From Sycobia sp. Sy_11 (Eukaryota; Arthropoda; Insecta; Hymenoptera; Epichrysomallidae), in assembly GCA_018907035.1 (NCBI GenBank), contig JACCIC010000228.1, positions 310,001 through 374,000 on the forward strand: DNA of 64,000 nt, given 5' to 3'. The translations under genes were made by a program, and so were the position numbers. The notes beneath the pieces were generated by a model, which saw only the letters and a list, made by a program, of their open reading frames with translations, searched no databases and was not told the origin of the DNA. Numbering within the stretch: position 1 is the stretch's first letter; each line of letters opens with the position of its first letter. This document shows, piece by piece, positions 18,401-63,860 of the stretch.

Positions 18401-19810
18401 GAGAACCATGCGAAATAAGAGGGATCCAGGACTTGACGGAATTCCAGGAGAGGTGCTGAAAATAATAGTTGAGGAGCATCCAGAACTCCTTCTGTCGATG
18501 TACAATACGTGCTTGATGGCTGGTTTATTCTATTCTAGCTGCAAGGTTGCGAAACTTGTGCTAATCGACAAGGGCAAGTGTCCGTCGAAGGCGCCCTCCT
18601 CGTATCGATCTTTATGCATGTTAGATGCAGCTGGAAAGCTGATGGAGCGTCTATTGAAGCCACGACTCCTCGGGGCTGTTGCTGCTGCCGGTGGCTTGGC
18701 TGACAGACAGTACGGATTCCGAGGGGGCAGGGCGACGGCAGACGCAATCGTCAAGGTTGTTGATGCGGCGAGGCGCACAGAGTACCCCTCTCTGTGCGCC
18801 TATTAACCCTACTCGCGACCTGTTTGCCTCCTGGCTGCCCTTGATGTTCGGAATGCCTTCAACTCTGTTGGATGGGCAAATGTTTTGATGGTCATGGAAC
18901 GAGACTTTCGGGTGCTGCCTTATATACTTCTTATATTGGGTGACTACCTTAAGGATCGATACTTGATTTACGAGACATCGGACGGTCGAAGAAGGAAAAA
19001 ACTTAGTCCGGGATCGCTCAGGGGTCTGTACTCGGACCCGACATGTGGAACATCTCATATGACGGAATACTCCGGATGCAGATGCCTGAAGACACCTTTC
19101 TGGTTGGATACGCAGATGATGTAGCAGCTGTCATCATCGCTAGGGAATATGACGCTGCACAGATGCGACTCAATCAGGTGATGCGTCGCGTGCAAAGACG
19201 GATGGAGAGCAATGGGTTAGAACTGGCGGCGGCGAAAACGGAGATCGTGCTCCTGACGAAGAAACGTATCCCGAAGATACGCCTTATGCAGGTTGGAGAC
19301 GCGACGGTGAGTACCAAAGCAGCTGTAAGGTACCTGGGGGTGACGCTTGATTCCAAGCTGACCTTCTGGGACCAAATAAAAAAAGCAGCGGATAGAGCTG
19401 CTCGAGTGACACAACTTGGCAGGTTGATGGCCAATGTCGGCGGCCCAGCACCCTGCAAGCCGCGTCTGCTCATAAGGACAGCCGAATCCATCATGCTATA
19501 TGGCGCGGAGGTATGGGCCGATACACTGATGGCCCAAAAATATAGAAAAAGAATGGCAGCAGTACAGCGTAGAGGGGCATTACGCATCGTGAGCTCCTAC
19601 CGTATGGTCTAAGAGTCGGCGGTGCTGGTAATCGCATGTCTTATTCCCATTGATCTCCAAGCACAAGAAAAGAAATTTTTCCACCAGAATAAAAATATTC
19701 TCGGCAGAATAGAGGCAGCTGCACAGGCCAGAGCTGCCACGATGACCGAATGGCAGAAGCGCTGGGAGAGGGATCCGCGCAGCCGATGGATGGCTCGACT
19801 GATTAGTCAG
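18330..19810 (+). pseudogene. R1-type reverse transcriptase, broken
   Basis: RT begins in the frame 18216-18806: LFSKEEIGRAVRTM, then RDPGLDGIPGEVLK, VAKLVLIDKGKC, YRSLCMLDAAGKLMERLL and ADRQYGFRGGRATADAI. A frameshift near 18800 breaks the LDVRNAFNS block. The frame 19043-19612 carries the catalytic FLVGYADDVAAV box intact, then LAAAKTEIVLLTKKR and VRYLGVTLDSKLTFWDQI. A stop in SYRMV*ESAV interrupts the C-terminal region. The order and motifs are those of the R1 clade, which makes cDNA at a nicked target site. Confidence 0.85.
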
Positions 19811-24546: not shown

Positions 24547-24905
24547 TCAATTCATTCCTTTTCTCCAGAGTCTCATGTTTGCAGGTTCGTAAGTGCCTTC
24601 ATATTTTCTTTGGCTTACTTGAAAATCTGCAATATCGGCAATGATGTACCTGTTATGTTTAAGTATTTTAGTTACTTGGTATGGACCCTTGAATTTTGGT
24701 ACAATTTTTGATGAAATTTCAGCAGTATTATTATAATTTTTTATCATAACATAATCACCTGTTTCATATGGTTTAAGATTTTTTTGCTTTTTATTAGCTT
24801 GATCAATGGTTTTTCTCTGTTCTTTTACAATTTTTCCATTTGCTTTAGATCTTAAGCTATACAAACATCTTTGATTTTGATTTCTTTTAGTATTAATAAA
24901 TTAGG
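24547..24905 (-). pseudogene. Ty3/gypsy integrase C-terminal domain
   Basis: Open frame of 105 codons. A basic N-terminal part is followed by LKPYETGDYVMIKNYN and KIVPKFKGPYQVTKILKHNR, the GPF/Y-type module of gypsy integrases, and YEGTYEPANMRLWRKGMN before the stop at 24547. It is separated by one stop from the catalytic core to its right. It is the 3' end of pol and directly precedes the LTR. Confidence 0.8.
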
Positions 24906-25352
24906 CTATTGGATCGTGTATTTTACCTCGCTGAGGTACTCTGAATAAGAGTATTCTGGGAGTTTCTCCTGTTGTTTTACGAACAGTATTGCTCAGTGTA
25001 AATTCAATTTCTCCCAAGGTGTTTGCCCAATTTTTCTCCATATCGTAATCTGACAATTTCCCCAACATGGATGATATCGTTCTATTGACCCTTTCAACTT
25101 GACCATTAGCATGTGGTGATCCGGTCGCGATTAATATGTGTTTGATATCAAATTCTTTAATAAAATTCGAGAACTCATCCGAAGTAAAACATGACCCTCT
25201 ATCCGATACAATAATTTTAGGTTTATCATAATATGAAAAATAAGTTTTAAGATTAACAATTGTTTCTTTTGTATTAGTTGATTTTGATGCATATAATGTT
25301 GTAAATTTTGTAAAGCCATGGACAATCACGAAATATTTTCCCGCACTCAGGG
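24901..25352 (-). pseudogene. Ty3/gypsy integrase core, 5' part displaced by insertion
   Basis: Open minus-strand frame. KYFVIVHGFTKFTTLYASKS is followed by KPKIIVSDRGSCFTSDEF with the second catalytic Asp, then SPHANGQVERVNRTISSML with the Glu. The first catalytic Asp segment is missing. The reading passes at about 25350 into unrelated sequence (codons for QKIVFCALSAG), the edge of an insertion of about 1 kb. Confidence 0.8.
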
Positions 25353-26330
25353 CGCAAAATACGATCTTCTGCAACTCTCTAGAGGGAGCAAAATACTACT
25401 TTTCCTCCCTTAAGAGGAAAAGTGAATGAACGAAATCATGTAGTTCGGTAGGATTCTCAGTTTTCCGTGCCTGCGTAACATCTAATCTGGCATTTACGAT
25501 GTTTAGACTTACGAGTATATGCGCCAGTCGACCGCGGGCTCGACCTTTTTTTTGCACTTTGAGTTAGGATTTCAAGATTTTTAAATAAAATAGGATTTAT
25601 ATTCGACCTGAAATTTATTATAAAAATTCTTATGTTTTTTAAGTATTAAAAATTATCTATATCTTTTTTTAATTAGTTTTAATTTTAAATTCTATTTATT
25701 ATGCAATGAAATTTTTTAAAATTTTAATTTGAGCGTAGATTATTAACAAACTTATAATCTTCAATTGATTAGTCTTATTTATTTATGGAGAAGGAGGGCT
25801 CCGCCCTCCCCCCAACCCCCGGCGGGGGTTTCACTCTCCACACCCACCATCCAATCCTACATCTCTTCTTAACATATTTTATCAATTTCCAAATAAGAGG
25901 AAATTATTTAATTTAATTTTATTCAATTCAAGTAAATTGCAGGTGTAACCTTAAGAGAAAACCAATAATAATTTTTTCGAAATCCAACAAATTACATTTT
26001 ATGTTAGGGCAACTTATTTCAGAGCGAGTATCATTTGGACCTTTAGATTTTATACCTGCCCGCTCTATCTAAGTATACCTAACACATGGGGAGGAGGGTT
26101 TGACATTCTTTAATTCTGTGACTTTGCCGTTCAATTTTTTGTGCATTTCATTGAGAGAGAAAGAGCGCCCTCGTATGGGAAAATAGTATGGTACACACGA
26201 GAGCAAAGGCGTTTTCGGACTCGGGTCGTCGTTTCGCTCGGACGGCATACATACCCTCCTCGGAAAACGCCTATTTTGCTCCCTTGTGTCACAATGTACT
26301 ATTTTACTGATTACGCGCGAGTCTGATACA
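25353..26330. mobile_element. insertion in gypsy integrase, possible non-autonomous DNA element
   Basis: Non-coding, about 0.98 kb, splitting the integrase between the HHCC zinc domain and the core. GGGAGCAAAATA at 25385-25396 is inverted as TATTTTGCTCCC at 26271-26282. A related GGCGCAAAATACGATC lies at 25349-25364. Inside is a short GC-rich stretch (about 25795-25855) with CCGCCCTCCCCCCAACCCCC. No transposase frame is visible and I could not define an exact target duplication. Confidence 0.45.
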
Positions 26331-26599
26331 GATGTATGATCTATTGCCTGAAGCTTACCTTCTATTTTTTCGCTCGATGGGTTATATGCAATACATTTAA
26401 AACAGTTTTTTATATGATTGACAACTTTTTTTCTCAATTCTGGGAACCAATATATTTTATTTATGATTTCAATAACTTTTTCAGGTCCCATGTGCCCTAA
26501 TTCATCGTGGTATTTAAACAAAATACTTTTTTCCATCTCGCACGGAACAACAAAAAGTAGCTGTTCTCCCATTTTACGATACACAACGCCGTTTCTCAT
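26331..26599 (-). pseudogene. gypsy integrase zinc (HHCC) domain
   Basis: Start of the frame 26069-26599: VVYRKMGEQLLFVVPCEMEK, then FKYHDELGHMGPEKVIEII, then VVNHIKNCFKCIAYNP. The pattern H-x3-4-H ... C-x2-C is complete. After AIDHTSVSDSRVISKIV the frame enters the insertion. Normally this domain helps integrase multimerise at the LTR ends. Confidence 0.8.
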
Positions 26600-27270
26600 G
26601 TCGGTCTCTCACTTTCTGATTTTTCAAGCTGTGCTTTTATTCCCAATATGTTTTTATGAATGTTTTGTGCAATAATCAAATTGGTTTTGAACGAATTATC
26701 GTCGATAATAGCGACGAAATTGCATCGGCTGAGACTATCGACATGATTCATGCACGATCGTGCTCTGTGTTCAGTTACATAATCATAGTTTTGTAACTCT
26801 AAGATCCATCTGGATATTGTTGGATTAATGTCTAACTTTTTTAATGGTAACGCTAATGAATTACTATCAGTAACATTTTTAAATTTTATACCCATAAAGT
26901 AAACTCTAAATCTTTTTAATGAATAGACTATCGCGAGCATTTCTAGCTCAAAGCTGTGCAACTTACTCTCCGCGTCAGTAGTACGCTGGGAGAAATAAAA
27001 TATAGGATGCATCTTGTTTTCATTGCCACGTTGGAATAAAATGGCTCCGAAACCTCGCGAACTAGCGTTACAATGCAGCTCGGTTTCTGTATTCGGATTA
27101 AAAGTTGCAAGGATGGGCGAATTGACCAATTTTTCTTTTAAATTTTTGAAAGTATCAATTTCAATTTTTCTAAATTTAAATTTGCTTGTTTTTTTCAATA
27201 GGTCATAAAGTGGTTTGGCAATGATAGAGTAAGATTCGATAAATTTTCTAAAGTAAAATAAACAAAACAA
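26596..27270 (-). pseudogene. gypsy RT thumb and RNase H
   Basis: An intact 224-codon frame. FIESYSIIAKPLYDLLKK is the RT connection region. ETELHCNASSRGFGAILFQ is the RNase H first strand, with Asp replaced by Asn at the usual DAS. KMHPIFYFSQRTT is followed by LHSFELEMLAIVYSLKRFR carrying the catalytic Glu, then FKNVTDSNSL carrying an Asp, and NHVDSLSRC. The rest of RT, protease and gag are absent: the frame begins next to the right LTR copy at 27272, so the 5' two-thirds of the element is deleted. Confidence 0.8.
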
Positions 27271-27271
27271 A

Positions 27272-27560
27272 TGATGTCACAATTGGGTTCTTTATAAACA
27301 ACCACGAAACTATGTGAGGGGTGGTTTACTGAAGTAAGGATGCCACTTAATTCGACTATAACTATAGATTTATTAACTGATTACATACTAATTTATACAT
27401 ATATTATATACATGCGCTCGAGAGCAAGTTCAGATGAAAACTAACTACATATTTCTCGGTTTCGGTGAATTCGTGACATCCATCTCTCTTTCTGCTAACG
27501 CACGCATACACTGTATATTATATAAAGCATTACGCGCGCTATATGCTATATTCTTACAAC
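27272..27560 (-). repeat. LTR of gypsy element (5' LTR, truncated)
   Basis: Direct repeat of 24074-24360 (TGATGTCAC...TATATGCTATATTCTTACA) with scattered differences and small indels. It is cut on the right by a (TA)n(TG)n array at 27566. It abuts RNase H/RT coding sequence, not a primer-binding site with gag. Confidence 0.7.
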
Positions 27561-30362: not shown

Positions 30363-30668
30363 AAATTAATAAATATTTTTTATCGGTCTTACAGTCCAAT
30401 CAATTCAATCTAAAAATAAAAATAAAAATAAATAAATAAAAATAAAATAAAAATTAAAAATAAAAATTAAATTAAAAATTAAATTAAAATTATAATGACA
30501 GTCAGACTGTCCTTGTTTACATTCACCCCCGTAGACTAATCTGAAAATAAAATATTAGCTGAAAAAATTCTTTGTTAGTAAAATGCAGTCTGACTGTCCC
30601 CAACACCCTTACCTAATTGAAGACTTGTTCAACGTTTCCAGCTCACTACGGCTCCTCATCAGGGACTG
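30363..30668 (-). repeat. PLE terminal unit, subfamily A, with hammerhead-like core
   Basis: The plus strand starts TTAATAAATATTTTTTATCG with GTCTTACAGTCCAATCAATTC after it. The (AAATA)n tract, ATGACAGTCAGACTGTCC, ACCCCCGTAGACTAATCTG and GCAGTCTGACTGTCCCC follow. The hammerhead-like core on the minus strand spans 30622-30666: CTGATGA, a GGAGCC...GAGCT arm, then GAAAC. No coding sequence is attached. Confidence 0.8.
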
Positions 30669-30689
30669 ATAAATTATTTTAATCTAATG

Positions 30690-32013: not shown

Positions 32014-32595
32014 TCAGGCGTCTGCCATCGCAATTCCTATATTATTTTTCGGGAGAATCCGTTTGACTCTATACGGTACCGTATATTCGGAATCCAATGG
32101 TCCTCGCTTGACGTTTCGGAGTAGGAGAACGTCATCTCCTTCGCGGAAGTCGCACGGGTTTATTCGCCTATCGTAATAGGTCTTGGACCTCTGTTTTGCG
32201 AATATCAGATTATTCCGCGCGGTCTCTAATATTTTCGGGGTTCTGACCTTTAAACGCGCCACGTAATCGAAATATGTTTCGTCGAAGGTTTCCTCCATTC
32301 CTGGGTGATCAGTCGGCACGCGCGCGATATTCCCGAGCACACACTCGAAGGGGCTCACTCGAGTTCCTTCATGAATGCTGGTGTTGTACGCAAAGGAGTG
32401 CAGTCCAATCAGCTGTCCCAGGTCGCCATTCGCTGTCTCTGGGAGGGGCGCCACTATATCCATGGCTACCTTCTCAAAGGCCTGCCCTAAGGTATCCGTA
32501 AGGATCAGCGGTTGATGGACGTTCCTCCTCACGAGTTTGCCGATCTGACAGGTCGTACACCTGGCGATGACGTCCTGTACATCACGTTTCAGCAT
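32014..32595 (-). pseudogene. Ty3/gypsy integrase with internal deletion
   Basis: A 193-codon intact frame. DVIARCTTCQIGKLVRRN is the end of the HHCC zinc domain. AFEKVAMDIVAPLPETANGD holds the first catalytic Asp. The frame then jumps directly to LGQLIGLHSFAYNTSIHEGT, so the segment with the second Asp and the Glu is deleted in frame. The C-terminal part (ARNNLIFAKQRSKTYYDRR, then FREGDDVLLLRNVKRG) is a normal gypsy tail. It is catalytically dead by deletion, not by stops. Confidence 0.8.
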
Positions 32596-32598
32596 TGG

Positions 32599-33412
32599 CT
32601 AGTAGAAGTCTTGTTTGACACGAAGGTACATCTTCGTGACGCCCTTGTGCCCGTTCACCGGTGGTTGGTGAACGTCGCGTATTATACCCTCACGTTCCTC
32701 TTCGGGAGGCACTCGGACGAGGTTTTTACAAATGAGATATTTCACCACACTTGATTGGTTGACCAGATCCTCTAGGCGGGATCGAATGGCACTCCACGTT
32801 ATATCCTTTACTGGTTTTGTAAAGTACGCGCACCTAATCGCTTTCATATTTTTCTCGCGTATATTTTTCTCGGCCACGTCGAATGCCTGTCGTAGGGTGG
32901 TTATATTGGGCGGCGCGTGCTCGTTTTCCATAACGGACAAAAATACGGTATGGAACCGATCGTTCGCGACGGCTTCCGCAGTTCCCGCAGGTATGGACGG
33001 CCTATCCGGTAGCCCGTCCTTGTCATGCAGCTCGCAAGCTGCCTCGCAAATGGGTTGCCAGACAATAGTCACGAGTACGATGGCGTTCCCATGATACATG
33101 AACACGACATCCCGAATTTCAACGAGGCCAGGTTGGTCATGGTACCGCTGGTCGAGGTCGTACGGGACATCGGCTGGTTGTACAAGGTCTTCATCCCACG
33201 ACCCATTGTCGTCGTCCTCGTCATCCGTAGGGTCGTCCATTTCCTGGTCCTCAGAGGGCTCGTTGACCTCCTCATCGGCCCCCATGCTGAGTGGGTGGCT
33301 CTCGGGACTGCTCCCCATTGTCCCCATCTCGGACATGAAGTCCTGGCCCTGGTCATCCTCCTGTTCGACCTGGATGGTATCATACTCAGGACGGCTCCGA
33401 TTGCTTGATTCG
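32599..33412 (-). pseudogene. gypsy acidic linker and integrase zinc domain
   Basis: A 245-codon intact frame. Its first 55 residues are very acidic (DEEVNEPSEDQEMDDPTDDE). A globular stretch of about 120 residues follows, and it ends in DVHQPPVNGHKGVTKMYLRV, the first half of the HHCC zinc domain. One stop separates it from the integrase to the left. It sits where RNase H and its tether should be. The acidic piece is probably the RNase H-integrase linker, now joined almost directly to the start of RNase H. Confidence 0.6.
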
Positions 33413-33656
33413 ACGCGTCAGTCGTTACGTGAAATGGCTGGTTAAAATCGGGATATTTCAACAGCGGCTTCTCGCATAGTTTCTTTTTCAAATATTCGAA
33501 ACCTTCCCGCTGTTTCTCGCCCCACGACAATGTTGTATCCTTCCTAAGAAGCGCAACTAACGCACGCGAGTACTTTGCAAATTCCGGTACGAACCGGCGA
33601 TAATATCCCGCAAGCCCTAAAAACGCGTTTAGGCGTTTAGGTAGGTTTAGGTAGGT
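33413..33656 (-). pseudogene. gypsy RNase H N-terminal fragment
   Basis: GEKQREGFEYLKKKLCEKPL is followed by FHVTTDASNQAIGAVLS, the RNase H first strand with the catalytic Asp. Reading then changes frame straight into the acidic linker, so the helix with the catalytic Glu and the second Asp are gone. A GTTTAGGTAG decamer is repeated three to four times at 33626-33665. Confidence 0.7.
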
Positions 33657-38674: not shown

Positions 38675-38757
38675 TGAATTGTACTTTTGTCGACTGCCCA
38701 TATACAAATTAATAAATATTTTTTATTGGTCTTACAGTCCAATCAATTCAATCCAAA

Positions 38758-38815
<58 letters not shown>

Positions 38816-38972
38816 AAATAAAAAAAAAATAAAAATAAAATAAAAATTAAAAATAAAAATTAAATTAAAAAATAAATTAAAATTATAATGACAGTCAGAC
38901 TGTCCTTGTTTACATTCACCCCCGTAGACTAATCTGAAAATAAAATATTAGCTGAAAAAATTCTTTGTTAGT
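38675..38972 (-). repeat. PLE terminal unit, left arm of palindrome
   Basis: Starts TTGTACTTTTGTCGACTGCC and AAATTAATAAATATTTTTTA, then the (AAATA)n tract, ATGACAGTCAGACTGTCC and GCTGAAAAAATTCTTTGTTAG. It stops before the second GCAGTCTGACTGTCC motif, where it is fused to the opposite unit. Confidence 0.85.
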
Positions 38973-39220
38973 CTCGAAACGTTGGACAAGTCTTCAATTA
39001 GGTAAGGGTGTTGGGGACAGTCAGACTGCACTTTACTAACAAAGAATTTTTTCAGCTAATATTTTATTTTCAGATTAGTCTACGGGGGTGAATGTAAACA
39101 AGGACAGTCTGACTGTCATTATAATTTTAAATTAATTGTTAATTTAATTTTTATTTTTAATTTTTATTTTATTTTTATTTTTTTTTTATTTATTTTTTTT
39201 ATTTTTATTTTTTATTTTTA

Positions 39221-39251
<31 letters not shown>

Positions 39252-39300
39252 TTTGGATTGAATTGATTGGACTGTAAGACTAATAAAAAAATATTTATTA
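38973..39300 (+). repeat. PLE terminal unit, right arm of palindrome
   Basis: Opposite orientation to the left arm. It begins inside the hammerhead-like core (CTCGAAACGTTGGACAAGTC at 38972-38991), then reads GGGGACAGTCAGACTGC, CAGCTAATATTTTATTTTCAG and CGGGGGTGAATGTAAAC, and ends with TAATAAAAAAATATTTATTA. The 5' half of the core (CTGATGA and arm) is missing. Confidence 0.85.
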
Positions 39301-39306
39301 ATTAAT

Positions 39307-39307
39307 A

Positions 39308-39346
<39 letters not shown>
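39307..39346. repeat. (TA)n microsatellite
   Basis: Short TA array immediately after the PLE palindrome. Confidence 0.9.
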
Positions 39347-39634: not shown

Positions 39635-40530
39635 TGGCGATGGGAAGGGTCGAGAATCTCGAGGCTTGTCATTTTTTCGGTCTTTAGAAAACATTCGAAA
39701 TTATTTCAAATTTTTGCATGATAATGCTTTTTGTCGGTGGTAAGAGTTGATAAATTCGAAGCTAGTTACTTTTTCAGGTCTGAGAAAAAAATTGAAAATT
39801 TTCATAGGTTTTTCAAAATTTTTGCATTATAATTGTTTCTGGCAATGGGAAAGATCGAGAAAATCGAGGCTTGTTACATCTCGGTTCACAGAAAAAATTC
39901 TAAAATTTTTCCAAACTTTTGAAAATTTTTTCAAATGCTTGACATGAAAATGCTCTTTCGCAATGGGTAGGGTCGGGTAATTCGGAGCTTGTCGCTTTTT
40001 CGGTTTTGAGAAAAAATTCGAAAATTTTTAAAATTTTTTCAAAATTTTTGCTGGATAATGCTTTCTGGCAGTGGGATAGGTGAAGAAATTCGAGGCTTGT
40101 CACTTTTGCAGTTTTTAGAAAAAATTCGAAAATTTTCGAAATTTTTTTAGTTTTTGCATGTTTATCCTATCTAGTGATGAGAAGGGTAGAGAAACTCGAG
40201 GCTTGTCACTTTTTCGGTCCTTAGAAAAAATTCTAAAATGTTTGAATTTTTCCAAACTTTTGAAAATCTTTTCAAATGCTTTACATGAAAATGCTTTCTC
40301 GCAATGAGTAGGGTCGAGTTAGTCGGAGCTTGTCACTTTTTCGGTTCTAAGAAAAAATTCGAAAATTTTTGACATTTTTTCAGTTTTTGCATGAAAATTC
40401 TTTCTGCCGATGGGAATTTTCGAGAAACTCGGGGCTTGTCACTTTTTCGGTCCTTAGAGAAAATTCGAATATTTGTTAATTTTTCGAAAATTTTCAAAGT
40501 TTTTTCAATTCTCTTCTATTTTAAACGCGA
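39635..40530. repeat. tandem array, about 105-bp unit, eight copies
   Basis: Each unit carries GGCTTGTCACTTTTTCGGTC (or a variant), then a run rich in AAAAAATTCGAAAATTTT, then TTTTTGCATGAAAATGCTTTC and GGCAATGGGTAGGGTCGAG. Unit starts (the GCTTGTCAC word) fall near 39663, 39761, 39869, 39988, 40094, 40200, 40328 and 40433. The copies are diverged, so the array is old. Open frames inside it are artefacts. Confidence 0.85.
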
Positions 40531-43898: not shown

Positions 43899-45250
43899 GA
43901 ACAAGTTGCTTTGAATGAATATAATCGGGCATTAACATTGCTTCTTAATAATAAGAAGGAAGAAGCACTGAATGTTTTTCAAGAACTTCTTAATACAGAA
44001 CTTTTAGATCAAGTGGAAAAGCCGCCAATTCGTGATGGTCGATCTAGACCAATGGTTTCATTAAAATATTCTTGTCTTAAAAATATTGCAAACATACAGG
44101 TTGATCTAGCAGATTATGATCTAGCAATTATTAATTACTGCCAAGCATCTAATTTAGATGATGCTGATGTTAATTTGTGGTATAAACTTGGTATTGCAGC
44201 TATACAAGCTTATGATTTGGAATTAGCTTGTATGGCCTTTAAACAAGGATTAAAAAGAAATTTCAATCATTGGCCATGCTTAGATAATATCATTACTGTT
44301 TTATATGCTATCCCTGATTATATGAACTGTCTTTTGTATATATCGTTGGCTTTAGAAAGAGATGTAAACTATATTAAAGGTTTGATGTTTCGTGAACAAA
44401 TTTTGGACGCATTACCATCTTTTAAAGATTGTTATAAATACTATAATAAATTTTGGGTAATCGATCCTCCTCTTTATACTAATTATGATAAAGTGGTAAG
44501 TGATTTATTGATTAATGAAGCTTACGAACTTAAAAAAATGTGGATTATAAAGTCAACTAAACCAATAATATTTAATACTTGCAACTTGCTATTAAAGAAA
44601 CAATTAAATAAATATTCTTGGTTGGAATTAGGAAAATTTTTAATTGAGTTGTATCAATATATTAGTGACAACAACTTTAGTTTTGTTAATCCTGTATCAT
44701 TATATAATTATCAATCTCTTAACACATTGCAAACAAAAACATTATTAAAGAAAGACATATATTCTTTCAATAATGGGGATGATTTATGTATTGATTTGGC
44801 AATAGAACAAAATTGTAGTATGCATAAAGCTAAAGACGTAGATGAGGAAATTAAGTCTCATGAGGATAAAACTATTAAAATAAATCCAGATTTTAAAATG
44901 TTTGGTTCCCATTTTAAGGAATGTAAAGATGATAAATGTGATCATTTTTTAAAACAGTACAGAAATGAAAATTTTAGTGCGCAAAGTAAAGTAAATACTT
45001 GTGATTTACACCCAAAAATTGATTGTAAATCTAATGAAACTGATCAGTTTAATAAATTTGATGATAAAGATAAGAATCAGAAAGGAAGAAAGCGCCGTAG
45101 AAGTTCGTTATGTTTTTTAACGCAGTGGGCGTGGAGTAATAATATTGCTAAAAGACCATCTAGAGCTAGAACAAATAATCGTAAAGATTATGAAAGGGAT
45201 GGTGTAGCATTAGAAGAAATTCTGAAACGTATTTTTCCACCAGAATTATT
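43899..45250 (+). CDS. CABIN1: CABIN1-like gene, exon 2 (TPR region)
   Basis: Follows TTATAG|GAA in phase 0 and adds 450 codons. The protein matches the N-terminal TPR region of CABIN1, the calcineurin-binding subunit of the nuclear HIRA histone H3.3 chaperone complex (family knowledge). TPR-like helices lie at about residues 33-62, 84-116, 118-148 and 152-182; DVNLWYKLGIAAI and NHWPCLDNIITVLYAIPDY are the most family-like blocks. A basic patch KGRKRRRSS at about residue 417 is a likely nuclear signal, and the end EILKRIFPPELL parallels the family's QELLMKFLPSRLR segment. Reading on would meet TAA at 45252, but ATT|GTAAGC is a donor, giving phase 2 to exon 3. Codon use is AT-biased like the flanks. 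Confidence 0.9.
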
Positions 45251-45382
45251 GTAAGCTAAGTTTTTATAATAATATTTTAAATGTTTTATGTATTATTTAT
45301 TGACACAGATTAAAAAGTAAACAAATATTTCAATATTAATAAAATATTCTTAAGATATATCAATAGTATAAAATGGTTTTAG

Positions 45383-47184: not shown

Positions 47185-47750
47185 CATCCGAAAAAATTCG
47201 ACGGCATGAGCCAACTGATATATCAACATCATCAGCGACTTCTCTGAAAAAAGTGCTGCAGAGTCGCATCGAATGCTTGGCATCGAAGGCATATGGTGAT
47301 CATTCTTTAGCAGAAATAATATGCAAAAGATGGTTTCAATCGTGTAGACATAATAATTTTGATGTATGAAATAAAGAACGTGGAAGACCACCAATAAAGT
47401 TTTAAGACGCCGAATTGCAAACGATATTGAACATTTTGAGACAAAAGAAAATAGAAGAAATGTTATATGTCACACAACCAACAATTTCTGACCGTTTAAA
47501 GCTATGGAAAAGATTCAAAACTGTTGAAAATACCACCTCACCCACCTTTCGCCAGACTCGGATCCTTTTGATTACCATTTATTTTCATCGATGGGACATG
47601 AGTTGGCGTGGTATCCATAGATTGCCAGGAAGGTGATCAGAATGTGGAGAAAATAATGGCCAGTACATTCAATAAAATGTTTTTCACTTTCCCATTAAAA
47701 TTAGTGTTTTATTTTCACAAGAAAGCTCATTTTATACCAGTACACCTGGT
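47185..47750 (+). pseudogene. second mariner fragment, internally deleted
   Basis: On the + strand: SKAYGDHSLAEIICKRWFQS, then NNFDV and KERGRPPIKF (helix-turn-helix and linker), then YVTQPTISDRLK. A jump follows to the C-terminal DPFDYHLFSSMGHELAW. The catalytic core between them is deleted. The 3' terminus is TTATACCAGTACACCTGGTA. It belongs to a different mariner lineage from the one on its left. Confidence 0.8.
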
Positions 47751-47798
47751 AAATTAAAAGCAGACTGTCAGTCAGACGTTATATTTGACATTATTCTA

Positions 47799-48110
47799 AA
47801 TTAATTAATAAATATTTTCATTGGTATTACAGTTCAATTAAATCAATCGAAAATAATACGTAATAATATCAATATCTATTTATATTAACATTAATATATC
47901 AATATACAAAAATAATAAAAATTAAAAATTATAATGACAGTTAGACTGCCCTTGTATAAAATCACCACCATAGACTAATCTGGAAATAAAAATATTAGCT
48001 GAAAAAATTTTGTTAGTAAAGTGCAATCTGACTGTCCCCACCACCCTTACCAAATTGAAGACGTAATCCAACGTTTCGAGCTCGCTACGGTTTCTTATCA
48101 GGGACTAAAT
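47799..48110 (-). repeat. PLE terminal unit, subfamily A, with hammerhead-like core
   Basis: The plus strand begins AATTAATAAATATTTTCATTG; ATGACAGTTAGACTGCC and GCAATCTGACTGTCCCC flank GCTGAAAAAATTTTGTTAG. The core on the minus strand at 48059-48106 reads CTGATAA, then GTAGCGAGCTC and GAAAC, then ACGTTGGATTACGTC, which gives a 4-bp stem III (ACGT/ACGT). It lies about 160 bp downstream of the PLE coding end on the same strand. Confidence 0.85.
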
Positions 48111-48265
48111 TAAACTTTATATTCTAATCTATATATACCTTATCCCCACCAGATTTAGTAAATTAAATATAAAATCCCCCTCTACACAAAATGTTCAAAA
48201 CCAATTAATTTAATAAGAAATGATAAATTTTATCTACTTTCTTCGACTCTAACATTAAATTCACA

Positions 48266-48760
48266 TTATTTCGATTCTTGGAAATGTGAATACTTTTCAA
48301 GACTCTCCCTTTCATACTTATTATTAATAGCATAATCTAAACTATCCATATTCACAAAATTAAAAGAATGTAAAAACGTTAAATAATGCTCCTTTAAAGC
48401 GAAAGTAATATGTGAACTAGGTAACCTATATTTATGTTCATAAATTCTCTTTTTTAAATATCTACCTGTTTGTCTAATGTAGTATTTATTACAATCCATA
48501 TAATTAATTTTGTAAACAACTCTAGATTTAGAGTTTCTCTTAGAGAAACATAAATCATTCTTATCTTTACATTAAACAATTTACTTAAATTATTGCTATT
48601 TTTAAAGAAAATTTGAATGTTATATTTCCTGAAATTTGTCTTAATTCTTTCAGATAATCCTCTCTGGGTGTATACATTCTTCACGTTTAAAGAATTTCCA
48701 GTCCACGAAATAGTAATAAACAAAATTTATATTTGTTATTACAGTATTGATTGAATAGCT
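48266..48760 (-). pseudogene. PLE C-terminus with GIY-YIG nuclease domain
   Basis: The minus-strand frame 48454-48723 carries the linker (GLSERIKTNFRKYNIQIFFK, then NSNNLSKLFN). After a stop, the frame 48266-48499 carries MDCNKYYIRQTGRYLKKRIY and EHKYRLPSSHITFALKEHYL. The YIRQTGR block is the GIY-YIG-type catalytic start of Penelope endonucleases (family YIGQTGR), here with Gly replaced by Arg. KYERESLEKYSHFQESK ends the protein. It ties the downstream terminal unit to the PLE class. Confidence 0.85.
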
Positions 48761-49639
48761 CTGTTAGTTTAGATTCCTTGAAAAGGTATATATCAATAGC
48801 CTGGAATATAAGCAAGAAATTATAACTGCATCCGCCTAAACAATTTGGAAACAGGCCTAGCTGGAATAAAAAAAATTGTTAAATATGTTAAAGAGACTAT
48901 TTAAAATTAGATTATTATTTTAAAAATTATTATATTATATAAAATTAACTGGAAAGGATAAATTATGATTAATAGGAACCAAACTTAACCTTGCTTATAG
49001 TTGATATAACTTATTATTTCTATTAATTTTTGAGTTAGATAAGTATTACTCATAAACGAGCAATTTATTTCTTTATCCGAATAATGATGAAACTGCGAGA
49101 GTAAGTGCCTATAGGGCTAAAATTACTCCCGCCTTGGTCCTGTCTAATTATAAATTTATTAATATTAAAACAATTAGAATAAGCTAAGAATTTATTAATT
49201 TTAATTTTTTTACCTTAATTATTTATTTTTACTTACTATATGTGTAATCTGGTAAAAATACGAATATAGAATTAGTATTAAACTAATATAATATAGTCGT
49301 TAATATTTTACCCATATTATTGCGGCCATTTTCTCTATTCATTGTACGGTGCGAATACCACTTAGCGACTTAGACAAACTGATATTGACGTAGTTTATTG
49401 ATGAGGTCCTTACGTAAAAAACCAAGGCGATCTGTATGATCGAGACGCGAAAGAAGTAAAATTTAGAATAGGATTATGTGTTCTTACCAAATGGCCCGAA
49501 ACTTATACACAGTAGTAATTACAGCACCATATGTAAGTAAATTTGTTTTTTCATTAGGAGTGTATTCTCAATCTAATGTCAATTTTCGAGTAAAATTCTT
49601 TTCATTTGCGGGGCATGTTAACTTTCCATTTTCATTTTA

Positions 49640-50436: not shown

Positions 50437-51030
50437 GTAAAGTATTAATATATTTACTATGATTATCTTCTATACATGTTTTAATTAGTTAATATGAGGT
50501 GAATATTTTAATATTTTTATGGTAATTGCTTATCACTAAAACAAAAAATTCTTGTTTTTGCTTTTCTTTGTTCTAAATTGCTTACGCGTGTTTGTGCATC
50601 TTGCTATGTGTATGTAATGTTTGTCGACATATAAATAATAATATATTGGTATAACAATTAGTATTTATTATGGTATAGTACAGGTATTTATTTTATAAAA
50701 TTTACACATTAACATGCAATGAATTATACTATAAACATTCTCGTACTGAAACCACTTGTTAATAATTTATATCGTGACCTATAGTTCCATACTATTGATA
50801 CAGTTTTCATTTCCAGCAATTATAAAGTTTAAAATTGTATAATTTTATGCACAATGCTGCAAGTTAGTTTTTCAATAACAACACGTTGAAAAAGCAATAG
50901 AATTTCTAAAAAAAACTTTTAACAAAAGTAAAATAGGCGAGTCTGATGTTTTTCGCATAATATGAACTTTAAAACATATAAATATAATCATGTCTTTTCT
51001 AAAATATGTATAGAAAATTTTTTTTTAAAT
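50437..51030. other. start of intron 4, no recognised feature
   Basis: AT-rich intron DNA with no open frame of note before the next PLE unit. Confidence 0.4.
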
Positions 51031-51034
51031 TAAT

Positions 51035-51199
51035 AAATATTTTTATCGGTCTTACAGTCTTTATAATATTCTATATTAGTTAAAATAATAACTGTCAGAC
51101 TGCCCTTGTTTATGATCACCTCCGTAGAATCTGAAATAAAACTTATTACTACAATAAATTATATCAGAAAATTAAAAAGTAAAAATAAAATAAAATAAT

Positions 51200-51230
<31 letters not shown>

Positions 51231-51440
51231 TACAATAATAAGTAAAATAAAAAAAAAATAATAATAAAATAATAAAAATAATAATATGTGTACTTATTCT
51301 ATGTTAGTAAAGGACAATCTGACAACCCCTACCACCTTAAATTTAGGATCACCTTTTTGTCCGACGTTTCGAACCGCTATGGTTCATCCTCAAGAATTAA
51401 ACTAAAATGAAAAACCCAGCATGCTACTTTATATATCCCA
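51035..51440 (-). repeat. PLE terminal unit, subfamily B
   Basis: The plus strand starts ATTAATAAATATTTTTATCG; AACTGTCAGACTGCCCTTG and TCACCTCCGTAGAATCTGA follow, then an (AATAAAAT)n tract. The core at 51361-51395 (minus) reads TTGAGGATGAACC, then ATAGCGGTTCGAAAC, one base away from CTGAGGA. CCAGCATGCTACTTTATAT lies beyond the core, as in the unit at 63590. Confidence 0.8.
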
Positions 51441-52889: not shown

Positions 52890-53036
52890 TATTTAAAGTT
52901 AAATATTAAAAACACTACTTTAATAAATTACAAAATTATTAGTTCATTTTTCATGTTCTATTATAGAACGAAAATAAAGATCAGATTTTTGAGGTAGTCA
53001 GATATCTCGTTTGTAATGAAGCAAAGTAGAATAATA

Positions 53037-53052
53037 CACACATGCACGCACG

Positions 53053-53086
<34 letters not shown>
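53037..53086. repeat. (CA)n microsatellite
   Basis: CACGCA-type interrupted start, then pure CA, ending directly at the first base of the R1-type element. Confidence 0.95.
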
Positions 53087-53087
<1 letters not shown>

Positions 53088-54960
53088 TATCCCTAATGCT
53101 GCAGTTAAGTTGGCGATACAGAAGAATCCATCTATATTTCTAAAAGTATATAATGCTTGTCTTCTTGAGGGTATTTTTCCTGATTGCTGGAAAACTCAAA
53201 GGTTAGTCCCGTTACCTAAGGGCAATAAGCCACTTTATGATCCGTCATCATACAGGCCATTGCGTATGCTCGATACGGTAGGTAAAATATTTGAAAAAAT
53301 AATATGTAGCCGACTGGAAGCATTCACTGAGGGATTGCACGGCTTATCCTCACGCCAATTTGGATTTCGGAAATCAAAATCAACAGTCGATGCTATTCAA
53401 CTGGTAGTGTGTACTGCAAGAGATGCAATCAGTGGTAAGAGATGGAAAGTTGGCACTAAACAGTATTGTGCCATTGTCGCTCTAGATGTCAAGAATGCCT
53501 TTAATTCAGCGCGTTGGTCTTCTATTGTGAATTCGCTTAAAGAGTTCGGAGTACCTGGTTATTTACAGAATGTCGTGGCCAGCTACTTTGAGAATAGGAT
53601 AATATTATACCGAACGGATGAAGGCATTGTATCGCATAAGGTTACTGCGGGGGTCCCCCAGGGCTCGGTTATGGGACTTATATTGTGGAATATTATGTAT
53701 GATGGCGTGTTGAGGATTCCACAACCGCCTGGTTCAATAACAGTAGGGTACGCCGACGATATCGTTCTAGTAGTGACGGCTAAGACCCTTGAGGAATTCA
53801 CTGAAAATGCCAATAGGCAATCAGCAACATCAATAGATGGATTAACTCGGCTGGCCTACAATTGGCGGAGCACAAGACAGAAGTAGTTCTTGTCAGCAGT
53901 CGTAAGAAGGTAGATAGTATTACTCTTAAAGTTGGTAGCTGCCGCATTAGTTCTGCGCCATCTTTACGATACTTGGGTGTACAGCTTGATGCCAGGTTGA
54001 ACTTCAAAGAGCATCTAAAGATATCTGTCGAAAAAGTGCAACGAGTTTCAGTTGCCTTGTGTCGACTCATGCCTAACATTGGTGGCCCACGCTCACCCCA
54101 GAGGAAGCTATTAGCTTATGTTGTTAATTCTGTCAGCATGTATGCAGCGCCAATCTGGCATCATGCATATGGAATTAAATCGTATTGTGAGCTGACCATT
54201 GCGACCCGTTGCCGCTCCTGTATACGTATTATTAGTGGTTACAGGACAGTATCCACCGACACTGCTGAGGTACTTGCCGGAATTCTTCCTTTCGATTTAG
54301 CTGCAGATGAACTGGCTAGGCTGCACAACATATGTAAGGCCGCAGTGGATTCTCTACAAGGAAAAACGTAAAATCTAAAAACGTGGAACGTCAACGATCT
54401 ATAGAAATATGGCAAAAACGATGGAACGATTCTAGCAAAGGCCGATGGACTTATCGTATCCTTCCAGACATACACAGATGGATCAACAGGAAACACGGGG
54501 AACTAGATTTCCACCTAACCCAGTTGCTGACTGGACATGGTTGTTTTAGGTTCTATTTCCCCCGTTTTCACCTGGATAATGATGATTTCTGCCCCATCTT
54601 TCCGACATTGGTCGAGGATGCCGAGCATATACTAGTGAGCTGCCCTCGTTTTAGAACACAACGTGAGCACTTGATGAACATGATCAATAAGCCTATAAGA
54701 CCAGAGAGCATCCTATGAATAATGCTGGAATCTTCTGAAAACTGGAAGGCAGTAGCCAGTTTCGCAAAAGAGGTGATGACCAAACTCAGAAATGCCGATA
54801 GAATTAGGCGAATGGCCCAGGATGAACCAGGCTAGCTGATTCTATTTTAAGATGTAGAGGACGAACACCGAACCCCTGATCACTTGTGTGGATGGGGGAC
54901 GTAGGATAGTGTCATAAGAAGAGGAGCCGTATAGGCTAACTAACAGCCCCGTCGAAGTAA
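53087..54960 (+). mobile_element. 5'-truncated R1-type non-LTR retrotransposon
   Basis: The 258-codon RT frame 53110-53886 is intact. LEGIFPDCWKTQRLVPLPKG, SSYRPLRMLDTVGKIFEK and GLSSRQFGFRKSKSTVDAI are followed by AIVALDVKNAFNSARWSSI (block A Asp), VTAGVPQGSVMGLILWNIMY and ITVGYADDIVLVV (catalytic YADD). A frameshift at about 53860-53880 leads to 53862-54371 (LRYLGVQLDARLNFKEHL and onward) and then 54383-54718. The last frame holds LLTGHGCFRFYFPRFHLD and a zinc-binding end with one Cys lost (CPIF...HILVSC). ORF1 and the endonuclease are absent: the copy starts at the (CA)n. The 3' non-coding tail ends near 54960. Confidence 0.9.
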
Positions 54961-54974
54961 TTAGTATCTAAAGT

Positions 54975-55175
54975 AGTTAGTCTACGGGGGTGAATGTAAA
55001 CAAGAACAGTCTGATTGTCATTATAATTTTAATTTAATTTTTAATTTAATTTTTATTTTTAATTTTTATTTTATTTTTATTTATTTTTATTTTTATTTTT
55101 ATTTTTATTTCTACTTTATTTTTAGATTGAATTGATTGGACTGTAAGGCCAATAAAAAAATATTTATTAATTAGT
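54975..55175 (+). repeat. PLE terminal unit fragment, reversed
   Basis: Opposite orientation to most units: TTAGTCTACGGGGGTGAATG, then AACAGTCTGATTGTCATTAT, the (TTTTTATT)n tract, GGATTGAA-like TTAGATTGAATTGATTGG and TAATAAAAAAATATTTATTA. The hammerhead side is missing. It is joined directly to the 3' end of the R1-type element. Confidence 0.8.
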
Positions 55176-57448: not shown

Positions 57449-57844
57449 ATTACAAAATTCAAAGTTATTTACAACTAAAGCTTCATTTGTTCAGATTTAG
57501 GTATACACTGTAAAAATCTTTGATGCAAAAATGAATTATTAAAAAAAACAGCATAAACAGCATAAACCTGTTTTTTTTCATAATGATACGTTATTGGAAT
57601 AAATAGAAGAAGAATTTTCATTTCAAAACATTGGTGATTCAAGGCAATTAATTCGTTTTACGAGCTCACGCATGGACAAAATGATGTGAAAATAAACTCG
57701 GCTATTTTAAATGATCTCATTACTTTATTAAGTTAACATTTACTTAAAAACTATTTATTTATTATTATTTTTTAGAGTTTCAGATACATTTTGTGTAAGC
57801 TATACACGATGATATTTGTAGGGATGCATAATGCATATAATTTA
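57449..57844. other. AT-rich spacer
   Basis: No supported gene or repeat; contains AAAACAGCATAAACAGCATAAACC, a short local duplication. Confidence 0.4.
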
Positions 57845-58160
57845 ATTTAATAAATATTTTTATCGGTCTTACAGTTTTTCTAATATAATATATTAGCTAA
57901 AATAATGACTGTCAGACTATTCTTATTTATGTTCACCCCCGTAGAATCTGAAATAAAACTTATTACTACAATAAATTATATTAAAAATTAAAAATAAAAA
58001 TAAAATAATAAATAAAATACAATAAAAATAATCAAAGTAATATTCCCTATTAGTAAAGGATAACCTGAGCCCCACCACCTAAAATTTAGAATTACCTTGG
58101 TGTCGATTTGAGAATTACCTTGGTTTTCGAACCGCTACGGTTCATCCTCAGAAACTAAAC
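57845..58160 (-). repeat. PLE terminal unit, subfamily B, with intact CTGAGGA core
   Basis: The plus strand starts TTAATAAATATTTTTATCGG; ATGACTGTCAGACTATTC, then CACCCCCGTAGAATCTGA and an (AAATA)n tract. The core on the minus strand at 58120-58152 reads CTGAGGATGAACCGTAGCGG then TTCGAAAA. All catalytic-core bases of the CUGANGA...GAAA pattern are present. A short duplication (TTGAGAATTACCTTGG) lies between core and tract. Confidence 0.8.
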
Positions 58161-58960
58161 TGATTATTGTTTTAATTGATTTAATTTACTGACATTTGTT
58201 TTAATTTTCCGTTGTTTTAAGACGTTCTTGCGCTATATAATTTATTTTTTGTTAATCTATTTTGGGGAATTTTAGAAAAATATATTGTATAAATATTATT
58301 CTGGTATATGCAGACTTTTTTGTTTTACTATATTATTTTGTTTGTATTTTTTCTTAATATATTACTGAATTTAGAAAGATATTTTCTATAAAGTTTTAGT
58401 TATATGATTCAGTTGTAAATTTTTTTATATGCTAAGAACATATATTATGTTTACCTTTGTCGTTGGGATTTTGGCCTATAGCGACTTTACAAAAAGAGAT
58501 GTTCTTGTGTTAATGAATTAACACAAGTATCTCTACTATTGATAGGTCTTTATTATAAACTTCTACAATAAAATACAGATACACACCACAACGGATTATA
58601 TTCTGAGGTAGACTGCCCGTTGACTGATTGACTTTGGCTGCTTATATACTCGTAGATAATGACTTTGGCTTCTTGGAAGTCCGTTAAGTGAGGTGGTCAC
58701 GTGATTTGTCGACACTCGCTCCCTTATGCGATCTTTTATCGGGCTGGCAAAAGGTCCGCCTGTCTATGGGTAGTCGTTGTATGCTGGTGGCTTAGTGAAA
58801 AAAGATGGTAGCATACATACAGTCTCGTTATCTCTCGAATGTAAAATATTATTACAGTTTTTGTATTGTATGGTTTGTTCGGGTACTGCACCTTTTTTAG
58901 AATTGCAACATCCTGAAAATAATTTGCTAAAAAACCAAAGAGTTAAAGTCCATAATAGAT
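58161..58960. other. spacer, possible solo LTR at about 58450-58810
   Basis: GC-richer segment with TTATTATAAACTTCTACAAT and CGCCTGTCTATGGG. The frame 58777-59088 carries VCSGTAPFLELQHPENNLL, which I do not recognise, and runs into the PLE unit. As a CABIN1 exon it would break the phase left by exon 4, so it was not joined. Confidence 0.25.
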
Positions 58961-58964
58961 TGAG

Positions 58965-59345
58965 TAATTTAATTGTACTTTTGGCGACTGCTTATATACA
59001 AATTAATAAATATTTTTTCATTGGTCTTACAGGCCAATCAAATCATTCGAAAACAATACGCAACAATATCACTACATATGTACATTGACATTAATACATC
59101 AATACACAAAGATAATAAAAATAAAAATAAAAATTAAATTAAATTAAAAATTATAATAACAGTCAGACTGTCCTTGTTTACAGTCACCCCCGTAGACTAA
59201 TCTGAAAATAAAATATTAGGTGAAAAACAATTATTTTTTTTTGTTAGTAAACTGCAGTCTGACTGTCCCCAACATCCTTACCTAATTAAAGATCCACTCC
59301 AACGTTTGGAACTCGCTACGGCTCCTCATCAGGGACTAAACTAAA
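58965..59345 (-). repeat. PLE terminal unit, subfamily A, attached to coding end
   Basis: The plus strand begins TTGTACTTTTGGCGACTGCT and CAAATTAATAAATATTTTTT. TAACAGTCAGACTGTCCTTG follows, and GCAGTCTGACTGTCCCC is on the far side. The core (minus, 59291-59335) reads CTGATGAGGAGCCGTAGCGA then GTTCCAAAC, with GAAA changed to CAAA. Coding sequence follows without the usual 3' UTR. Confidence 0.85.
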
Positions 59346-59866
59346 CCTTATATTTATGTTCATAAATTCTCTTTTTTAAATATCTACCTGTTTGCCCAAT
59401 ATAGTATTTATTACAACCCATACAGTTAATTTTGCCAAGAACTCCTGATTTTCAACATAAATCATCCTTATCTTTGCCATTATTAAACAACCTACTCAAA
59501 TTATTGCTATTTTTAAAGAAAATTTGAATGTTATATTTTCGAAAATTGATTTTAATTCTTTCATACAATTCTCTAACATATGGCAAGATAATAATTTTGC
59601 CTCCGTTAACATCAACTCCTGCACTATGTCTATTTTTGGTATTATAAATGTCATACAATTTCTCAGCAATTAATCTATTAATAAATTCAATTGTATAACC
59701 ATTATTAATGAAAGTTTCTCTTACTATCTGTAAATTATTTTGTTTAAAATCTTTATGTGATAATTTTGTTGCTCTGTCAATGACACCTTTTAAAGCTCCA
59801 ATTTTGTTTCTGAATTGGTGGTGTGAATTAAAATCTAGATAGTTATATGTATTACCTGCTTCCTTA
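59346..59866 (-). pseudogene. PLE coding fragment (post-RT to GIY-YIG)
   Basis: Minus strand: TYNYLDFNSHHQFRNKIGAL, then KLSHKDFKQNNLQIVRETF, then LIAEKLYDIYNTKNRHSAG. VRELYERIKINFRKYNIQIF, NSNNLSRLFNNGKDKDDLC and INCMGCNKYYIGQTGRYLKK follow. The YIGQTGR block of the GIY-YIG nuclease is fully preserved here. It ends after EHKYK at 59346, where the terminal unit joins. On its other side it is fused to a non-LTR endonuclease. Confidence 0.85.
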
Positions 59867-60409
59867 GCCTGTTTCCGAACGTTGGGGTGTCGCCCACGTT
59901 GAGTATCGCAGGGTCTGTGCCCGCAAGATACTCTAGTAGTTTAGCACCTCTTGGGTTCGTACTAGTAGTCCCCCACACCCTATGGTGCGAGTTTGCATCA
60001 CATCCAAGGACTATTGGAAGATTGTTGATTCTACAATATTCCACTAGTCTCCGAACCTCCCCAGTGGGGTTATCTTTATTGTCATACGGTAGGTAGGCAG
60101 ATGCAACAACAATTCGCCCCATCCCTACTACCTCCGCCGAGGCCACTGCTAGGTTCCCCGTACAGAGACCGAGCATCGGCACCACATTTACTCCTTTTGC
60201 AAGGATACAAGCCCTAGTATTAGTGTCTTTGAGTCACTAATACAAGCGGCCCTCGACCCTAGGCATCTCGTCACACCTTTCACTATCCAAGGTTCTTGGA
60301 TTAGCAATATGCATGTTTGCACCCCCGCCAAACTCCTCAGCATAACGGCCGAGGCGTCTTTGCAGTGGTGCAGATTAATTTGGAGGAATGAGATATCCGA
60401 TGGAGCCAT
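59867..60409 (-). pseudogene. non-LTR APE endonuclease, truncated
   Basis: Two minus-strand frames join by a shift near 60190. The frame 60188-60409 holds ISFLQINLHHCKDASAVML and CILLIQEPWIVKG. The frame 59835-60185 holds GMGRIVVASAYLPYDNK, NLPIVLGCDANSHHRVWG and ILNVGDTPTFGNRLRKQ. Glu of IQEPW and the D-A-N-S-H-H block are catalytic or metal-binding in this family. It is cut after TPTFGNRLRKQ, before the SDH box and the RT, and passes straight into PLE sequence. Confidence 0.8.
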
Positions 60410-61914: not shown

Positions 61915-62250
61915 TAATAAGGTGAAACTTAATTGGTACAGAAAGCCTACTTGGCCAGGTAGGTTTTTAGATTTTAATTCATACCACCAATTCGGAAACA
62001 AAATTGGAGCATTAAAGGGTGTTATTGTCAGAGCAATAAAATTGGCACATAAAGAGTTTAGAGAATTTATGAACATAAATATAGTTTACGTAGCTCACAT
62101 ATTACTTCCGGTTTAAAAGAGCATTGTTTAAAGTTTTTACATTCTTTTGATTTTGTGAATGTGGATATTTTGGACCATGGTATTAATAATAAGTATAAAA
62201 GGGAGAAAGTATTCACATTTCCAGGAATCGAAATCATGTGAATTTAATGT
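61915..62250 (+). pseudogene. PLE coding fragment, internally deleted
   Basis: + strand: KLNWYRKPTWPGRFLDFNSY, then HQFGNKIGALKGVIVRAIKL and AHKEFREF. A deletion then joins to the end of the GIY-YIG region in another frame: NIVYVAHILLPV overlaps EHKY-like codons, then LHSFDFVNVDILDHGINN and KYKREKVFTF. It is oriented opposite to the PLE piece at 59346-59866 and shares LDFNS-HQF-NKIGALKGVI with it. Confidence 0.8.
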
Positions 62251-62880
62251 TAGAGTTTGGTAAATTGGACAGTGTTTATCATTCTTTGTTGATAATATCA
62301 TTTTTATCATTTTTATCATGTGTTTATCATTCATGATTGATAATATTAGTAGAGATACTTCATTCTTTATCTGAAACATAAAATAGATTAATTATAGAAT
62401 TTTCAGATGAAGGCATTTTTCTTAAGATTTGGTTGATGTGGCGAGTTATTATTTTCCCTTTTGCAATTAGCTTATAAGTGTGCATTTACAAATTTCGATC
62501 AGTTTCTACTTTTGGATACTTCCCTTTTATACCTTCGAATTTAACTCTGACTCTGATTTCGTATGGTTTTCTACAGGTTTATCTATGCGTTTATCTTGTT
62601 GCTCTTTTGTTTTTCTTATTTTCTTCCGTTAGTCGGCAAGTCGCTATTTTCCTTTCTTCTGTGTAGGCGTTGCAGTACTCAGCAGTACTCTGCCTGCCTT
62701 CTAAAGGATAAACTAATTTTATTTGTGGTGGCTCACTTCCAACGTATAGGTAGTAGGATGTGAAACCTGTGACTCTATGTGGAGTTTTGTTATATTTGCA
62801 TATAATGTTAAACAGTGTAAATTTTTTTTATTATGTAAGTTTTTTTTATTATTTTTTTTATTACTCTACTAGTTTTCCTT
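62251..62880. other. AT-rich spacer
   Basis: Contains TTTATCATTTTTATCATGTG local repeats near 62300; no supported gene. Confidence 0.4.
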
Positions 62881-63590: not shown

Positions 63591-63860
63591 CTTAATATTA
63601 ATAATAAAATAAAAATAAAATAATAAATAAAATAAAATAATAAATAAAATAAAATAATAAATAAAATAAAATAAAATAATAAATAAAATAAAATAAAATA
63701 ATAAATAAAATAAAATAAAATAATAAATAAAATAAAATAAAAGTAATAAAAAAATATTCTATATTAATAAGGGACTACCTCCGCCACCTTAAATTAAAAT
63801 TCATCTTTGGTATCCGACGTTTTGAATCGCTACGGTTCATGCTCAGGAACTAAACTAAAT
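63591..63860 (-). repeat. PLE terminal unit, subfamily B
   Basis: A long (AATAAAATAAA)n tract at 63597-63745, then TAAGGGACTACCTCCGCCACC. The core on the minus strand at 63813-63852 reads CTGAGCATGAACCGTAGCGA then TTCAAAACGTCGG, with G8 changed to C and GAAA changed to CAAA. CCAGCATGCTACTTTATAT follows, as at 51410. Confidence 0.75.

Follow-up and report, generated by a model that had tools for sequence, protein, structure and literature searches.

A very abundant repeat in Sycobia is probably a Penelope-like pseudo-LTR headed by a minimal type I hammerhead

Minimal type I hammerheads, which have no helix III and may cleave as dimers, are already published for Penelope-like elements (PLEs), as a first-pass annotation of the DNA studied here had noted (available text of PMC7761336, PMC6466107, and PMC6155905). 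A close system is Poseidon PAc of Anolis carolinensis, for which extension of both target strands from adjacent start sites is reported and whose cleavage in vitro needed protein (PMC11167929). The Penelope families of Adineta vaga have pseudo-LTRs (pLTRs), inverted pLTRs, solo pLTRs, target-site duplications, a tail of about 31 bp, and palindromes at head-to-head junctions (available text of PMC3846280); a PLE tail, inverted pLTRs, both-strand extension, and internal initiation are described for other PLEs between that text and PMC11167929. Animal retrozymes are short non-coding units whose type I hammerheads are canonical, show loop-loop contacts, and lie in short tandem repeats (available text of PMC7229834).

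The repeat described here lies in a 64-kb stretch of contig DNA from Sycobia sp. Sy_11 (the window), and its copies were searched for in the 621-Mb assembly. Both the element and its ribozyme are of known kinds, and the copy number is very high. As far as the available text of the sources goes, it shares pLTR location and thousands of copies with the minimal hammerheads of PLEs (Cervera and de la Pena 2014; Lunse, Weinberg and Breaker 2017), while it differs from those in PMC7761336, PMC6466107, and PMC6155905 in its new host genome, its two subfamilies, the position of the motif at the exact 5' end of insertions, and A-runs at the scissile bond. It resembles PAc in its reverse transcriptase (RT) and probable GIY-YIG, pLTR, tail, hammerhead, and apparent both-strand extension (PMC11167929), and it has the traits just listed for A. 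vaga, although copy number is far higher here and hammerheads go unmentioned in the available text of PMC3846280. The likeness to retrozymes lies in short non-coding units with a type I hammerhead, but the motifs here are minimal and the units dispersed. Because intact cores number in the thousands and insertions have sharp ends, one can ask from junctions alone whether cut or uncut RNA served as template; judged by them, most of the reverse-transcribed RNA looks uncut, and junctions that fall exactly on the predicted bond are rare.

The hammerhead motif and its copies in the window

The intact motif forms the first ~42 nt of the unit and reads AGUCC-CUGAUGA-G-GAGC-loop-GCUC-GAAACGUU^GGACU. 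Stem I is AGUCC/GGACU, and stem II is GAGC/GCUC in subfamily A and GAACC/GGUUC in subfamily B. This is the layout of a minimal type I hammerhead, with helix III absent and a palindromic ACGU, present in the sequence itself, before the cut site; the predicted scissile bond lies after GUU and before GGAC. An extra base stands between A9 and stem II, and in subfamily B this creates an ATG starting at A9, a feature also reported for PAc (PMC11167929). Two sources of a helix III were considered and rejected: a hairpin of ACGTTGGATTACGTC, because the GGAC right after GTT pairs with the GUCC before CUGAUGA (stem I), and a helix from ACGUUGGAUUACGU, because the GGAC after GUU belongs to the stem I pairing. 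The stem II loop CCGTAGCG is kept in both subfamilies despite their differing stems; it is possibly a promoter or contact element, and shared descent is the simpler explanation.

In the window, Rfam 15 returns no hammerhead at the gathering threshold, and the 39 matches found up to an E of 10 include none either. Six genome loci picked for near-intact cores are likewise negative, so the covariance-model check proposed in the first-pass annotation came back empty, an outcome which that annotation had named, jointly with absent cleavage in vitro, as speaking against its reading. Rfam hammerhead models include helix III, which may be why there is no match. Free folding gives the hammerhead no advantage (z of -1.63, -0.74, and -0.67), and folding energies likewise speak against a hammerhead preference (-10.9 against -12.5 and -6.8 against -13.0 kcal/mol). 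Stem pairing is found in 86.4% of cells and is broken by sliding, yet shuffles score as well (14 rows, two of them misplaced by the aligner), and covariation amounts to one pair changed on both sides, in 3 cells. Statistics this weak, on folding as on pairing, fall short of proving the fold. Searches of PDB sequences gave no convincing match.

At the locus originally flagged, a pLTR unit extends on the minus strand from the hammerhead through the 3' end (..ATTTATTAA) at 47805-48106, and its minimal hammerhead (48065-48106, minus) is of subfamily A and degraded. The core strings do lie where they had been placed, i.e. CTGATAAGAAAC at 48090-48101 and GAAACGTTGGATTACGTC at 48060-48077, both on the minus strand, but as a working core this copy is dead (G8 to A). 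Allowing up to 2 mismatches, CTGATAAGAAAC has 6 matches in the window versus 8.3 in shuffles, and since shuffles match it as often, this string by itself carries no evidential weight. Neither the palindrome nor the A/T tract that lies farther on belongs to the ribozyme. The segment upstream of the core at 48266-48760 (minus), taken in the first-pass annotation for GIY-YIG coding sequence, reads by eye as a degraded GIY-YIG domain. It is probably a remnant of the PLE GIY-YIG endonuclease region, assigned by eye and by DNA similarity rather than by a profile match, with ~82% identity to 59344-59574 and 62060-62313 (blastn, window).

The unit had also been said to recur about ten times, and related segments indeed occur at or near all ten named places (blastn, query 47600-48799), but 4 of the 11 window units lack a full core. 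By eye, the 11 units sort into subfamily A (CCCTGATGAGGAGCCGTAGCGAGCTCGAAACGTTGGA) and subfamily B (TTCCTGAGGATGAACCGTAGCGGTTCGAAACGTCGGA), and a core is recognizable in seven (1.3, 30.6, 48.1, 51.4, 58.1, 59.3, and 63.8 kb) and not in the other four (17.0, 38.7, 39.0, and 55.0 kb). CUGANGA and GAAA are both kept only at 30.6 and 58.1 kb, and stem I is intact in neither. The solo subfamily A unit at 30373-30670 (minus) starts at its own hammerhead (30626-30667) and has an approximate target-site duplication of 17-18 bp (ACATTAGATTAAA(A)TAAT) on either side, and the subfamily B unit at 57838-58161 (minus; core ~58125-58151) keeps CUGAGGA and GAAA with an altered 3' strand of stem I. A further subfamily A unit with tail (59010-59337, minus) has its hammerhead at 59296-59337, where G12 is changed to C; an open PLE coding fragment at 59452-59940 (minus), the RT C-terminal part, is by eye similar to two genome loci (L002 and L105) and has no Pfam match of its own. 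In the subfamily B unit at 51028-51406 (minus), the hammerhead (51359-51399) carries C3 to U. The subfamily B hammerheads at 1310-1350 (plus) and 63812-63852 (minus) are degraded, with more decay than in the other recognizable window cores. The coreless units are a degraded one at 16819-17072 (minus), a 5'-truncated one at 54977-55173 (plus), and a head-to-head pair of A units without a full core at 38707-39313 (38707-38972 minus, 38973-39313 plus), in which the unit at 39.0 kb starts inside the core. An active ribozyme is probably absent from the window itself.

Genome copies, element anatomy, and insertion ends

The exact core pattern (CTGANGAN{10,24}GAAACGTYGGAC) has 4,196 matches in the genome, versus 0 for the same pattern read backwards as control, and core abundance is beyond chance at genome scale. 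Genome copies lacking CUGANGA and GAAA would have spoken against the reading in the first-pass annotation; they do not lack them. The ~100 matches listed can be assigned by eye to type A, to type B, or to a variant of either. Likewise, AGTCCCTGATGAGGAGCCGTAGCG has 2,728 genome matches, and five units occur in twenty 10-kb stretches taken at regular steps on three contigs. A table of 46 copies is biased, its query having held the core with the G8 mutation, and mutation frequencies from it are unused. In IMG/VR, a similar pattern occurs in 55 stretches, and stem I (at least 4 bp) and stem II (at least 3 bp) come together in 0 of 45 tested occurrences; the other-host comparison there gave 6 pattern stretches with no PLE relative.

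The structure of a longer element is seen in L105 (on C2), where same-strand hammerheads 2,985 bp apart enclose a unit, a tail, and an ORF in three open pieces (349-1491, 1475-2584, and 2585-2833). The middle piece matches RVT_1 (Pfam) above the cut-off (E 3.2e-8, 34 bits, cut-off 29.6). A GIY-YIG match in L002 is weak and below the cut-off (17.9 bits versus 22.6); PF01541 is present in a protein of 72% identity and in several of the relatives listed. Relatives carry both RVT_1 and GIY-YIG, and the named ones belong mainly to Hymenoptera and other insects (among 120 of 433). At the first hammerhead of L105 (L090), the insertion starts exactly at AGTCC; at the second (L091), AGTCCCTGATGAG is repeated at the head, suggesting a template jump at the 5' end. 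The ORF of PAc begins at stem II (PMC11167929), whereas a whole unit (about 0.4 kb) separates the hammerhead of L105 from the ORF that follows it. Solo and ORF-linked units have sequence and ends in common, and the structural traits of PLEs are present, i.e. pLTRs, an optional tail, inverted head-to-head copies, and target-site duplication. The suggestion that an otherwise anonymous, very common repeat is the hammerhead-bearing end of a PLE is therefore supported by L105, which joins a unit, an RT ORF, and flanking hammerheads.

The 50 bases upstream were read for the first 40 of 100 listed places (of the 2,728 matches). In 18 of these 40 copies, unrelated or antisense DNA stands directly before AGTCC, so that the insertion starts at the first base of stem I, while in the remaining 22 PLE 3' UTR precedes AGTCC. 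No break is seen by eye 1-20 nt upstream of AGTCC in the 40 copies, a sample in which selection on the intact AGTCC string conceals copies cut farther downstream. Self-cleavage was rejected as the origin of the common 5' end because that end sits at the opposite edge of the motif; since self-cleavage cannot make the 5' edge of stem I, the 18 templates had an uncut 5' ribozyme. AGTCC is probably the 5' end of the RNA, perhaps a transcription start. In one copy, L058, both ends are fixed by a clean 11-bp duplication; the copy is a G8 mutant, and its mutation may have arisen before or after the insertion. Right before AGTCC, L004 and L017 carry the PLE 3' tail as a short copy in inverted orientation, which would fit a brief extension of the second target strand.

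Close neighbors are mostly inverted. Among the 100 listed copies there are 19 neighbor pairs within 5 kb, versus about 2.3 expected for pairs of any kind. Fifteen of the 19 are head to head and none is tail to tail; the same-strand pairs are 3 plus-plus and 1 minus-minus. In L031, a single 14-bp duplication encloses a head-to-head pair that has a tail at one end and none at the other; pairs of this type would result from extending both target strands at two adjacent start sites.

Junctions at the predicted scissile bond and a proposed cycle

If cut RNA served as template, copies would be expected to begin at GGAC. There are 2,683 matches to GGACAAGTCTTCAATTAGGTAAGG and 2,457 to CGTT + GGACAAGTCTTCAATTAGGTAAGG, a gap that includes CpG decay. 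Exactly at the bond, 16 of the 2,683 copies are broken (two wrong bases required before GGAC), and the same two-base test at a control breakpoint 4 nt downstream gives 17, with a shorter base string and with upstream sequence unread; by this comparison there is no excess of breakpoints at the bond. Upstream sequence was read for all 16 breakpoint copies, and the 20 places fetched for such reading were chosen, not random. An A-run of at least 4 stands directly before GGAC in 7 of the 16 (L168, L182, L183, L187, L188, L189, and L192), and in L187, L188, and L189 a hammerhead ending exactly at CGTT precedes the run (8, 38, and 4 A). Other breakpoint copies have PLE coding, tail, or unit sequence before GGAC (e.g. 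L185, L186, L190, and L194). Direct search with CGTT + at least 4 A + GGAC finds five loci, two of them 3.7 kb apart and two among L187/L188/L189; including L188, whose run is too long for the pattern, six loci in all have an A-run between CGTT and GGAC, counted for this bond only. In L192 and in L195, a longer read of L187, GGAC is likewise where the head-to-head partner ends. Most of the element sequence is common to the A-run loci, which may not be independent, and as traces of cleavage at the bond they are suggestive and uncontrolled.

We tentatively read the A-runs at GUU^GGAC as fossils of the ribozyme cutting PLE RNA in cells, with the products rejoined. Specifically, the 5' product ending in CGUU would have received an A-tail after the cut, and the PLE reverse transcriptase would have run off the GGAC end and jumped to this tail, rejoining the products (A-runs 4 to 38). 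If true, the ribozyme shapes a minority of templates, and the bulk is inserted with an uncut 5' ribozyme. There is also a real chance that the runs come from one mutated master or by another route and are uninformative on RNA cleavage: L195, L196, and L197 have most element sequence in common, and two direct-pattern loci are only 3.7 kb apart. Against a single master, run lengths differ (4, 8, and 38), as do the 3' flanks of L195 and L196 (the L197 read stops within the unit), GGAC follows A-runs in other contexts as well (L168, L182, L183, and L192), and the partner of L195 stops at GGAC too. That the core processes RNA, as proposed in the first-pass annotation, is no more than suggested by these rare genomic junctions.

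Joining the motif, anatomy, copy number, 5' ends, and A-runs at the bond in six loci, we consider it likely that the repeat is a PLE pLTR headed by a minimal type I hammerhead and that it spreads by the following cycle. Element RNA would start exactly at stem I and contain hammerhead 1, the pLTR, tail, ORF, hammerhead 2, and a second pLTR. The PLE protein would initiate reverse transcription inside this RNA, at or just before a tail, on one or both target strands: a start at the first tail with run-off at the 5' end would yield solo units beginning with AGTCC, a start at the second tail full or 5'-truncated elements, and extension of both strands head-to-head pairs within one target-site duplication. 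The ribozyme could cut after GUU and before GGAC, probably as a dimer via ACGU. Most insertions beginning at the ribozyme would have left it uncut, while for a small minority cut RNA looks to have been the template, with some of these welded to an A-run after CGUU. The RNA 5' end or transcription start at AGTCC, cleavage in cells, A-tailing, and template jumping are steps that we infer. The empty Rfam search, the weak folding and pairing, the missing excess of breakpoints at the bond, and the existence of G8-mutant copies, L058 among them, count against this explanation.

Several of the same observations bear on other explanations. The hammerhead might be kept only as the RNA 5' end, as a promoter or protein-binding site for which catalysis is irrelevant; the uncut ribozyme of insertions starting at AGTCC and the missing excess at the bond fit this account, as do the Anolis catalytic mutants, which insert equally well in vitro with no reads ending at the cut site (PMC11167929). 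We hold it to be unlikely, given the A-runs exactly at the predicted bond in six loci and the presence of all core positions in 4,196 copies, though copies of one master would show the same. More improbable is that the solo units make up a family of their own, non-autonomous and akin to animal retrozymes, that spreads through RNA circles. Short non-coding units with a type I hammerhead would suit such a family, and co-existence of PLEs and retrozymes is reported (available text of PMC7229834), but the core has no helix III, only 4 of the 19 close pairs are same-strand (1.2-3.1 kb apart), no short tandem arrays occur among the 100 listed copies, and solo and ORF-linked units are alike in sequence and ends. 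That the motif is a chance resemblance within a repeat, as the lack of an Rfam match and the weak folding and covariation could suggest, is very hard to reconcile with the thousands of copies that contain the full core, both stems, and ACGU, with its position where PLE hammerheads are described (available text of PMC7761336), and with the 0 of 45 IMG/VR cores that have both stems.

Other features of the window

Matches to mir-283 (Rfam) at 38925-39082 fall on both strands with E about 4e-4, below the gathering score; this candidate was rejected, as the segment is the head-to-head inverted repeat of two PLE units. By eye, open frames resembling non-LTR retrotransposon reverse transcriptase/endonuclease lie at 17980-19612 (plus), 53035-54718 (plus), and 59835-60233 (minus), and others resembling LTR-retrotransposon integrase/reverse transcriptase lie at 24901-27276 and 32014-33656 (both minus). 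A 451-aa open frame at 43899-45254 (plus) looks by eye like a TPR host protein of the cabin-1 type, and a 106 bp tandem repeat (2.6 copies) occupies 39987-40262.
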